Of a DNA stretch of 64,000 bases, positions 16,552-20,785 are shown one piece after another (the first letter of the stretch is position 1; each line of letters opens with the position of its first letter). The stretch is from Gammaproteobacteria bacterium TMED1 (lineage in GTDB: Bacteria; Pseudomonadota; Gammaproteobacteria; Pseudomonadales; Azotimanducaceae): assembly GCA_002167855.2 (NCBI GenBank), contig NHBG02000020.1:324173-388172 (forward strand), written 5' to 3'. Under the pieces are notes generated by a model that ran no database searches, was not told the origin of the DNA, and saw only the letters and a list, made by a program, of their open reading frames with translations. A program made the position numbers and the translations under genes.

Positions 16552-17772
16552 CTAAGATGCAAGTGCCTGATCGAAGTCTGCTATCAAATCACCAGCTTCC
16601 TCAATACCAATAGAAAACCGAACCAGTGAATCCTGAATACCCATCTCTAAACGCCTCTTTCGACCCATTTCAGAGTAAATTGTATGCGCAACAGGTATGC
16701 CTAAAGTTCGGGTATCTCCAAGATTGCTGCTGCATATAACAAGTCTTAGTTTATTGAGAAAATCAAAGCAATCTAGATTATTGAGTTCTACACTAAATAT
16801 CGCACCCGGATGCCTAAATAGTGTCTGCGCAAGCTCATTCTCTGGATGATTCTGTAGGCCTGGGTAGTATAAACGCTTAATGCTCCGATGCCCGGATAGG
16901 AAGTCTGTAATTTTTTTTGCATTAGAGCAGGCTCTATCCATTCTTAAAGCTAGAGTGTCTGAACCAACAGAAATATGGTGCGCTGCTTCTGGGCCTAAAG
17001 CGGCTCCAAAATCACGAAGCCCCTTTTTCTTGATCTGGGTAATTGCCCAACTAGAACTATCACCTCCCTTATAGATATCGTATATATTTGAGTAGCTACT
17101 CCAGTCATAATTATTGAGTTCCGTGACAGCACCACCAAGTGCATTAGCGTGGCCACCAATATATTTTGTAAGACTGTTAATTGACAGACTTGCACCTACA
17201 TTTTTTGGCTGGAAGAGATAAGGAGTGGTCATGGTATTGTCAATAAAGTAAACAAGCTGGTGATCTTTACACAAATCGCCAATCCTCTGGAGATCAGATA
17301 TCTGAGTTCTCGGATTGGCTATAGTTTCTACAAATACCATTTTAGTATTTTCCCGAATTTCTGAAGCGACGGCATCGACTGATGTGGCATCCACTAAAGA
17401 TACCTCAATCCCATGAGTAGCAAAAGAGCTGAACAAACTGTTAGTGTTGCCAAACAAATAAGATGACGAAATTAAGTGATCACCCCTCTGCAATAATGAA
17501 AACAGTGTACTACCAATAGCGGCCATCCCCGTTGAAAAAGCAACGGTTGCAGATCCATTTTCCATAACTGAAATCTTGTTCTGTAATGCTGTCACGGTAG
17601 GATTTGTCTGACGGCCATAAGAATAACCAAATTCCCTACCTTGAAATACGGCTGCTAATTCTCTTGCATCCTCATAAGCATAAGTCACGGTAGTGTGAAT
17701 AGGCTTATGTATCGAACCATGTTCTATTTGATCCTGTCGATCTGAATGCACAATTCTTGATGTAAACCCCAT
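16552..17772 (-). CDS. Cys/Met-metabolism PLP-dependent enzyme (homoserine sulfhydrylase / gamma-lyase family)
   Basis: YGRQTNPTV, FSTGMAAI, TKYIGGHANALGG; preceded by a SAM-II-like riboswitch. Confidence 0.85.
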   Translation of the reverse strand: MGFTSRIVHSDRQDQIEHGSIHKPIHTTVTYAYEDARELAAVFQGREFGYSYGRQTNPTVTALQNKISVMENGSATVAFSTGMAAIGSTLFSLLQRGDHLISSSYLFGNTNSLFSSFATHGIEVSLVDATSVDAVASEIRENTKMVFVETIANPRTQISDLQRIGDLCKDHQLVYFIDNTMTTPYLFQPKNVGASLSINSLTKYIGGHANALGGAVTELNNYDWSSYSNIYDIYKGGDSSSWAITQIKKKGLRDFGAALGPEAAHHISVGSDTLALRMDRACSNAKKITDFLSGHRSIKRLYYPGLQNHPENELAQTLFRHPGAIFSVELNNLDCFDFLNKLRLVICSSNLGDTRTLGIPVAHTIYSEMGRKRRLEMGIQDSLVRFSIGIEEAGDLIADFDQALAS

Positions 17773-17799
17773 ATCCCCTCCTAGGCGACATTCGAGCCG

Positions 17800-17845
17800 A
17801 AAAAAAAACCTGTCTAGTTATCTATCCACAACTAAAGCAGGTTTC
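17800..17845 (-). terminator. Intrinsic terminator in the leader of the Cys/Met PLP gene (attenuator)
   Basis: Minus strand AAACCTG-c-TTTAGTT-[GTGGATAGAT]-AACTAGA-CAGGTTT then a run of Ts. Confidence 0.8.
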
Positions 17846-17900
17846 TTTCCCTTTAGCTGCACTTCTATCGCGCCCGCAAGCAGATTTCAAATCGGCGCAT
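17846..17900 (-). promoter_or_regulatory. SAM-II-like riboswitch aptamer
   Basis: Minus strand GCGCCGATTTGAAATCTGCTTGCGGGCGCGATAGAAGTGCAGCTAAAGGGAA: P1 GCGCC/GGCGC, GATTT in the loop, TGCTT/AAGTG pseudoknot, conserved GCTAAAG(GG) tail. Confidence 0.78.
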
Positions 17901-17904
17901 GAGT

Positions 17905-17934
17905 ATTTTAAGAAACCCTTTACCAAAATATCAA
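17905..17934 (-). promoter_or_regulatory. Sigma-70 promoter for the riboswitch-led transcript
   Basis: Minus strand TTGATA-N18-TAAAAT, placing the predicted TSS at the first base of the aptamer. Confidence 0.6.
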
Positions 17935-18001: not shown

Positions 18002-19288
18002 ATGCCTTCATTTAATGACGAACTCTTAACATTCTTATCTCAATCACCTACACCATTTCATGCTGTTAAAAATATGAGTACTCAGCTAGAAAAAGAGGGC
18101 TTTAAAAAACTTGATGAAAGTGAGTGCTGGAAAATTACTGAACCTGGTCGCTATTATGCTGTGAGAAACCAGTCTTCTATCATAGCTTTTACTCGAGGTA
18201 ATAACGATGCTCTTAAGGCAGGCATAAGGCTTATCGGTGCCCATACTGACAGTCCATGTCTCCGCGTCAAACCAAATCCAACAATCCACAAAAGTTCATA
18301 TCTGCAAGTTGGAGTAGAAGTTTATGGCGGGGTATTGCTAAACCCCTGGTTTGATCGAGATTTGAGCCTTGCAGGTAGAGTGACATACTCTGCTGGATCG
18401 GCTATATCTAGCAGTCTCATTAATTTTAATGCCCCAATAGGCATAATCCCAAGTCTTGCCATTCACCTTGATCGTAAGGCCAACGAATCACGCAGTATTA
18501 ACCCCCAAAGACATCTTCCACCTGTTCTTATGCAGACGGATGAATATACAACCTTCGATTCCCTCTTGGAAAAAAGGCTCCAAGAAGAACACGATATAGA
18601 AGGGAAAATCCTAGGACATGAGCTCTCTTTTTATGATGTCAACCCAGCCAACCTTATTGGCATGAATAACGAATTCATAGCAAGCGCGCGATTGGATAAC
18701 CTCCTTAGCTGCTTTATTGGATTAAAGTCACTTCTATTAGCTGATGATACCTATACCTGTGTCTTGGTATGCAATGATCATGAAGAAGTTGGGAGCGCCT
18801 CGAATGCAGGCGCCTTTGGACCCTTCCTAAGGAATGTGATCGAAAGATTATTTCCAAATAGAGAAGAGCTACTCCGGATAATGTCAAGATCGGTTCTAAT
18901 TTCAACTGACAACGCACATGGTATTCATCCCAATTATGCAGACAGACATGATACCAATCACGGGCCTTTATTAAATAAAGGACCAGTGATTAAAATAAAT
19001 GCTAATCAGCGCTATGCCACTAATAGTATAACCCAAGCGTATTTCGCTCATTTATGTGATCAGAATGATATTCCATACCAAAAATTCGTTAACCGCTCCG
19101 ATTTATCCTGTGGCAGTACAATTGGACCCATTACATCGACAGAACTAGGTGTAAAAACTATAGATATTGGTTTACCAACATTTGGGATGCATTCAGTTCG
19201 AGAACTGGGCGGTGCGCAGGATCCGGAATATCTGTACCGTGTACTGGTAAACTTTTTAAATATCACAGACCTCCCCAACGCTCTATGA
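18002..19288 (+). CDS. apeB: M18-family aminopeptidase
   Basis: LIGAHTDSPCLRVKPNP, NDHEEVGS, SARLDNLLS, DNAHGIHPN. Confidence 0.9.
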   Translation: MPSFNDELLTFLSQSPTPFHAVKNMSTQLEKEGFKKLDESECWKITEPGRYYAVRNQSSIIAFTRGNNDALKAGIRLIGAHTDSPCLRVKPNPTIHKSSYLQVGVEVYGGVLLNPWFDRDLSLAGRVTYSAGSAISSSLINFNAPIGIIPSLAIHLDRKANESRSINPQRHLPPVLMQTDEYTTFDSLLEKRLQEEHDIEGKILGHELSFYDVNPANLIGMNNEFIASARLDNLLSCFIGLKSLLLADDTYTCVLVCNDHEEVGSASNAGAFGPFLRNVIERLFPNREELLRIMSRSVLISTDNAHGIHPNYADRHDTNHGPLLNKGPVIKINANQRYATNSITQAYFAHLCDQNDIPYQKFVNRSDLSCGSTIGPITSTELGVKTIDIGLPTFGMHSVRELGGAQDPEYLYRVLVNFLNITDLPNAL

Positions 19289-20397
19289 AACTACTAGAAC
19301 AGATAGCAGTTGCAACAAATTTACGCGAAGGGGCTGAGGGAATAAGAGATATCCTAGCGTCTGTAGCCCAAAATCAAAAACTTTCACTTAAAAATTTAGC
19401 GAATACGGTTTATATGCCGCTACCTGTTGTAGCTGCTGTGCGCCGAGAACTAGAACGTCGTAATATTTTGGTTCGGGATAAGGGGATCTGTCTTACCCAA
19501 GAAGGATTAAAGTTAGTGAGTGATTTGGGTATCCAAAGCAGTTTAGTCTCGGAAGACCATTTGATATCGATATTCAAGGATATCAAATATAAAATGCCTG
19601 AAGTAAACGTTACTCTAGACCAAGCATTCGCAAGCCCTGAAACATCTTTTCGTCGAGTTACATACGCAAATCAATATGATGCGATTTCGGGTCGAAATGT
19701 CATTTTAATCGGAGACGATGACCTTACCTCTATCGCTATTGGACTTAACTCGAAAAAAAAAGGAAAACCCAAACGACTTGTGGTTTTGGATATCGATCCA
19801 AGGGTTATAGATCTTATAACTAGTACCTCAGCAGAATTTAGTCTAGATATAGAGTGTTACTTACATGATCTAAAATGCCCTTTACCTCCTAATCTCAAAT
19901 ATAATTTTTCTACTGTCTTCACAGATCCTCCGTATACACTATCAGGACTTGAATTATTCCTGGCTAGGGCTTCTGAAGCATTAGAAGAGGGATCTGGAAA
20001 GCAAGGCTACCTTTCCTTTGGAAATAAGGACCCAGATACCGATCATGAGGTTTTTAAAATTATTAGCCAATATGGATTTGTGCCAAAAGAAATCATCGAA
20101 AACTTTAATACTTATGACGGAGGCACAATCATTGGTAATATCAGTCGCATGATCCGTATTGTAAGCGGGACACAAAGAGCAATCTTACCATCATACTTTA
20201 ATCGTCCCATCTACACCGGCGATAATAATATCTCACAGAGGTCCTACGTATGCAGTCTATGTGGAGAGAAATATATAGTAGGTAAAAATTGTTCACACAT
20301 CCATATAGAGGCCCTAAAACAAGCGGGCTGCTCGGAATGTGGTAACACCATATTTAATCTAGTAGCTAAAATTCAAGAGGGAAAAAATGACAGATAA
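19285..20397 (+). CDS. bpsA: BpsA-like N4-bis(aminopropyl)spermidine synthase family protein with C-terminal Cys4 tail
   Basis: Winged-helix-like N-terminus, GDDDLTSIA, VVLDIDPRV, FTDPPYTLSGLELFL, FGNKDPD motifs; ATGA overlap with apeB. Confidence 0.75.
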   Translation: MKLLEQIAVATNLREGAEGIRDILASVAQNQKLSLKNLANTVYMPLPVVAAVRRELERRNILVRDKGICLTQEGLKLVSDLGIQSSLVSEDHLISIFKDIKYKMPEVNVTLDQAFASPETSFRRVTYANQYDAISGRNVILIGDDDLTSIAIGLNSKKKGKPKRLVVLDIDPRVIDLITSTSAEFSLDIECYLHDLKCPLPPNLKYNFSTVFTDPPYTLSGLELFLARASEALEEGSGKQGYLSFGNKDPDTDHEVFKIISQYGFVPKEIIENFNTYDGGTIIGNISRMIRIVSGTQRAILPSYFNRPIYTGDNNISQRSYVCSLCGEKYIVGKNCSHIHIEALKQAGCSECGNTIFNLVAKIQEGKNDR

Positions 20398-20785
20398 TAG
20401 AGCTAAGTTAATGGCCTATACCAGCAGTATGACCGAAGAAGATAGAAAACTGGTCTTGTCCTTAGGTAAACAACTTACTCTTTGGTGCTTCGACTGTAAT
20501 GGGATTCAAATTGACGATGCAGATTTGCTTACTACCCAAATGATAAAATATATAGAACAAACTAACCTATCAGTTCGAGAAAAGTGTGTTTCAAAATATG
20601 AACCTCAAGGTATAACGATTGCTCTAATTTTGGAGGAATCACATCTTATGGTGAATACCTGGCCAGAGCATCGCGTTATGCAAATTGAACTATTTGCGTG
20701 TACCGACATAAATCAAAAAGATCTGGAGGGTATTGCTACCGAAATGTTCGGCGCCGAACGAGTCTATACATATAGATATGAATAA
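20387..20785 (+). CDS. speD: S-adenosylmethionine decarboxylase proenzyme
   Basis: LEESHLMVNTWPEHR (E-S-H processing site), ELFACTDI; overlaps bpsA by 11 nt. Confidence 0.88.
   Translation: MTDNRAKLMAYTSSMTEEDRKLVLSLGKQLTLWCFDCNGIQIDDADLLTTQMIKYIEQTNLSVREKCVSKYEPQGITIALILEESHLMVNTWPEHRVMQIELFACTDINQKDLEGIATEMFGAERVYTYRYE

Follow-up and report, generated by a model that had tools for sequence, protein, structure and literature searches.

A probable SAM-II transcriptional OFF switch ahead of a methionine-pathway gene in Gammaproteobacteria bacterium TMED1

The leader of a methionine-pathway gene in Gammaproteobacteria bacterium TMED1 is very probably a SAM-II transcriptional OFF switch, with SAM as the presumed ligand. 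It occupies positions 17934-17800 on the minus strand of the 64,000-nucleotide stretch of DNA analysed here, referred to as the window, and reads in order promoter-like hexamers, aptamer, terminator and T run (table 1). All of these, including a bulged 14-bp terminator stem, had been claimed in a sequence-only reading of the same DNA, and all are found on that strand. The reading had also proposed that bound SAM allows the terminator to form and turns the gene off. This logic is probably right, as the match to the SAM-II model, the gene context, conservation among relatives and compensatory changes all point in its direction.

Table 1. Features of the leader and the gene that follows it, in window coordinates.
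Feature	Positions	Strand	Basis or remark
Promoter-like hexamers TTGATA-N18-TAAAAT, 7 nt before P1	17905..17934	-	10/12 matches; conserved in congeners
SAM-II aptamer (RF00521 SAM_alpha), full model 1-79	17833..17908	-	28.7 bits
P1 5' strand GCGCC	17894..17898	-	Sequence, RF00521 alignment; invariant in congeners
Loop L1 GAUUUG	17888..17893	-	Identical in 107/108 leaders
Predicted pseudoknot 5' side: P2a UC 17884-17883 and P2b CUUGC 17880-17876	17876..17884	-	RF00521 alignment
P1 3' strand GGCGC	17870..17874	-	Sequence, RF00521 alignment, congeners
Aptamer tail GCAGCUAAAG: antiterminator 5' strand and predicted 3' strand of pseudoknot	17851..17860	-	
CUUUAGUUGU: antiterminator 3' strand and part of terminator 5' arm	17828..17837	-	C17837 bulged in terminator
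Intrinsic terminator hairpin, 14 bp, 6-nt loop	17808..17842	-	-14.6 kcal/mol by folding
T run of nine, first T inside stem	17800..17808	-	Sequence; invariant in congeners
Likely ribosome-binding site GGAGGGG, outside terminator	17777..17783	-	Sequence; purine-rich site conserved in congeners
Presumed target gene, 406-aa protein of the cystathionine gamma-synthase family	16552..17772	-	NCBIfam NF004609, Pfam PF01053

The Rfam model RF00521 matches the leader with 28.7 bits, at E = 8.6e-5 in a local low-threshold scan of the window and E = 1.4e-4 in a scan of the whole genome; none of 14 control genomes contains a match. The score lies under the gathering score of 36 bits, which is a database threshold and not a biological feature, and a default Rfam scan therefore misses the leader. 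In the same family of bacteria, leaders of genes that have the N-terminal motif of the window gene do score above 36 bits (for example L006, 50.6 bits; L007 and L008, 48.5 bits). SAM-V and SAH-family models gave no match in the window up to E = 5, and readings of the aptamer as SAM-V or SAH-type were dropped on this ground. The Rfam rivals mir-1270 and Bp2_287 are weak, far under their own cut-offs. The conserved SAM-II core is complete: GAUUUG, CUUGC and GCUAAA are all present, the last within GCUAAAG at 17857-17851 of the tail. In SAM-II, L1 forms the third strand of the SAM-binding triplex. P1 comprises 5 bp, invariant in congeners, and the P2b motif (C/A)UUGC is conserved across leaders. 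RF00521 carries no pseudoknot and leaves P2 unscored; the core bases of P2b are present in the window, in a register that we take to be that of the metX structure. P2a amounts to only about 2 bp, its register being taken from congeners. When the pseudoknot is excluded, ViennaRNA prefers folds of the aptamer stretch that lack P1. The SAM-II identity proposed in the sequence-only reading is borne out by the model match and the core motifs. Judged from its sequence, the element is a genuine SAM-II riboswitch, a divergent member in the usual configuration, and it adds a sub-threshold example to a known class.

The gene behind the leader scores 635 bits against NF004609 (cut-off 555), and its start codon lies 27 nt beyond the end of the terminator. 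The gene upstream of the leader, at 18002, is divergent, so that the terminator serves no upstream transcript. With the likely ribosome-binding site outside the terminator, these positions make a transcriptional OFF switch the simplest reading. The only other SAM-II match of the genome precedes metA in the same layout, and both copies fit the position of SAM-II before genes of methionine and SAM biosynthesis. Near the switch, at 19285-20785 on the plus strand, a branched-chain polyamine synthase-like gene (BpsA_C, PF01861) adjoins an adenosylmethionine decarboxylase gene. The promoter-like hexamers (-35 at 17934-17929, -10 at 17910-17905, minus strand) are found at chance level on their own (1 against 0.8 expected), and the promoter was discarded as independent evidence. 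Support for it comes from conservation in four congeneric leaders, where the hexamers appear as TTG(A/C)TA and TA(A/C)AAT.

An intrinsic terminator follows the aptamer, and its 5' arm is complementary to one aptamer strand. The terminator stem joins 17842-17828 to 17821-17808, and the U run reaches 17800. A simple terminator scan returned no hit, presumably owing to the bulged stem; folding resolves the hairpin. Tail and arm form a helix of 10 pairs, 17860-17851 with 17837-17828. The sequence-only reading had recognized this complementarity between 17859-17851 and 17837-17829, and the helix extends by the pair of 17860 with 17828. When the downstream stretch is shuffled with its dinucleotides preserved, only 14 of 4000 versions reach the score of this helix. 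The same reading described one strand shared by three structures. The pairings are real, but the sharing was overstated, as two strands are involved: 17860-17851 is common to aptamer and antiterminator, and 17837-17828 to antiterminator and terminator. By folding, the antiterminator hairpin reaches -10.3 kcal/mol, against the lower energy of the terminator (table 1). Folding at increasing lengths gives the antiterminator as the best nested structure at 70-82 nt, and from 85 nt onwards the terminator arm prevails, the order required by a kinetic switch.

In the proposed mechanism, the transcript would start right at the aptamer, a start site placed by inference. At low SAM, the tail GCAGCUAAAG would pair with CUUUAGUUGU as soon as the latter emerges; this antiterminator would mask the terminator's 5' arm and let polymerase continue into the coding sequence. 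Once SAM is bound, the pseudoknot P2 would hold the tail, leaving the arm free and allowing the terminator to form, so that transcription would end after roughly 100 nt. We infer both the kinetic nature of the switching and its direction.

Relatives supply the comparative evidence. SAM-II matches occur at one to three per genome in all seven genomes of the genus examined, at least once in 37 of 101 sampled genomes of the family, and in 120 of 369 genomes of the class, only 32 of which exceed the cut-off; many SAM-II leaders of this class go undetected in Rfam scans at default settings. In the leaders of the same gene in congeners (n = 4), the flanks diverge around conserved promoter hexamers, P1, core, tail, arm and T run. 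The corresponding enzyme on a MED690 contig is 87% identical to that of the window. Upstream of a relative of the gene at 63% identity (L004), inspection of 400 nt by eye revealed no aptamer. Among 108 SAM-II leaders collected from family and class, the tail-arm helix has at least 6 bp in 93, and a T tract lies within about 80 nt in 91. The leaders L001, L038, L040-L042 and others share with the window a common platform, ACCU(G/A)CUUUAG(C/U) followed by a T run, and the same downstream genes.

Covariation of tail and arm was assessed in the 73 non-redundant leaders that carry the arm motif NTTT(A/G)G(C/T) ahead of a T tract. Against shuffled pairings, and uncorrected for relatedness, the freely varying flanking bases pair at position -1 in 38 of the 73 (27.1 expected, p = 0.002) and at +7 in 24 (15.3 expected, none of 5000 shuffles as high). 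At positions -2 and -3 these leaders show no excess over shuffles. Within the motif, GCUAAAG/CUUUAGC is replaced by GCUAAAC/GUUUAGC, a paired change seen in L043 and again in L142, which belongs to a different family within the same order. The sequence-only reading had suggested looking for covariation in homologous leaders; through the excess at two flanking positions and these counterpart changes, the antiterminator has comparative support beyond the window.

Three other readings of the leader have to be weighed. Translational SAM-II switches exist, and the element might likewise act by hiding a ribosome-binding site, the hairpin being incidental. A leader of the same family and gene type, L082, shows how this looks: it has a SAM-II aptamer without terminator, and GAGGAG lies on the aptamer tail, 20 nt before the ATG; as far as its sequence tells, control has probably shifted there from transcription to translation. 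In the window, by contrast, the likely ribosome-binding site at 17783-17777 is about 70 nt past the tail and outside the terminator, and a conserved T run would be senseless in a translational switch. Translational control, very improbable here, is rejected on account of this distance.

A decayed aptamer before a constitutive terminator, limiting expression or producing a small RNA without responding to SAM, is also improbable. It would account for the sub-threshold score, the short P2a and two departures from other gammaproteobacterial leaders, namely loop CUGC in place of CAGC (a U where congeners mostly have A) and GGG in place of GAG after the tail; a constitutive terminator is described behind SAM-II at S. 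meliloti metA (PMC9373788). Yet the ligand-pocket motifs are intact, the antiterminator retains its full 10 pairs, and scores under the cut-off are common in the class. That the aptamer might be a relative with another ligand such as SAH, or of SAM-V type, has nothing specific in its favour beyond the low score and is extremely improbable: the model searches speak against it, core and gene context suit SAM-II, and in A. tumefaciens SAM-II favours SAM over SAH by a factor of more than 1000 (PMC1273637). The SAM-II transcriptional OFF switch remains the preferred reading.

Several side observations concern annotation and arrangement of such leaders. RF02424 ('Burkholderia sRNA Bp2_287') has a weak match opposite the window aptamer, at 17785-17898 on the plus strand. 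According to a comparison of match tables for the class, 21 of 31 RF02424 matches overlie RF00521 matches on the opposite strand, and direct scanning added three such loci (L149, L151, L155). Each of the 15 RF02424 loci read (L143-L157) has on its opposite strand a core like that of SAM-II, and in nearly all a terminator-like T run comes after this core; several precede sulfhydrylase-like genes and one a metK-like gene. From these sequences, RF02424 appears to be an antisense description of SAM-II leaders. The metXZ element of beta-proteobacteria (PMC4239095), in which a terminator comes after a possible pseudoknot, may likewise be a SAM-II. In the same genus as the window, locus L043 (genome G046, 1501-1698) carries a SAM-II match of 24 bits with its own terminator, directly followed by a SAM-I/IV match of 75.5 bits; tandems of two SAM classes are a rare type, of which seven have been counted (PMC9481103). 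At L055, L145, L146 and L148, the sequence after the first terminator opens like another SAM-II (GCCGATTT...CTTGC or similar), which suggests SAM-II leaders in tandem; five SAM-II matches occur in the genome of L055 (G349).

The layout of the window leader is ordinary, known since 2005 and common to most relatives of this gammaproteobacterium. Corbino et al. 2005 found that near-consensus promoter elements usually lie a few nucleotides ahead of P1 in SAM-II, and that many members have intrinsic terminators (PMC1273637). The sequence-only reading presented a transcriptional SAM-II whose transcript starts on the aptamer as a noteworthy variant, which is not supported; in family and class this arrangement is the rule. 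Nor does the view that SAM-II is usually translational hold: most are transcriptional and the translational metX case is rare (Huang & Lilley 2018, PMC6061858), and Barrick & Breaker 2007 (PMC2258182) provide a published precedent for the transcriptional reading. The S. meliloti metZ leader (PMC9373788) and the A. tumefaciens metA element (PMC1273637) have the same P1, L1 GAUUU and GCUAAA tail, a pseudoknot of the kind predicted for the window leader, the same promoter just before P1 and a terminator ahead of a methionine gene. According to Scheuer et al. 2022 (PMC9373788), an RNA of about 100 nt, a size that fits the terminated product of the metZ switch, is more abundant under high SAM, and S. 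meliloti likewise has two genome copies, at metA and at a sulfur-transfer enzyme gene.

The window leader differs from known SAM-II members in its low model score and in its P2a of about 2 bp, whereas 60% of SAM-II have 5 bp (PMC6061858). SAM-V closely resembles SAM-II in its pseudoknot core and its SAM site (PMC6061858), but is translational, and its model finds no match here. A further difference concerns the pocket strand GCUAAAG, which in the window pairs unbroken with the terminator arm and in high-scoring leaders of a phylum sample mostly does not; by eye and in a simple helix search, the P2a strands of the latter are rich in G+C and their arms are built differently. On the leaders compared, it seems typical of this class that the pocket strand is re-used without a break. 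Tentatively, and with more doubt than confidence, gammaproteobacterial SAM-II may have in common a sequence-conserved expression platform (ACCUGCUUUAGY and a T run) in which the pocket GCUAAAG itself serves unbroken as antiterminator strand, in contrast to high-scoring phylum-sample members, in which the pairing would involve the P2a strand or be interrupted. If true, this would be a lineage-specific switching solution, of which no description was found in the SAM-II literature examined. The 108 collected leaders offer material for studying the transfer of a binding-pocket strand from a small pseudoknot to an antiterminator.
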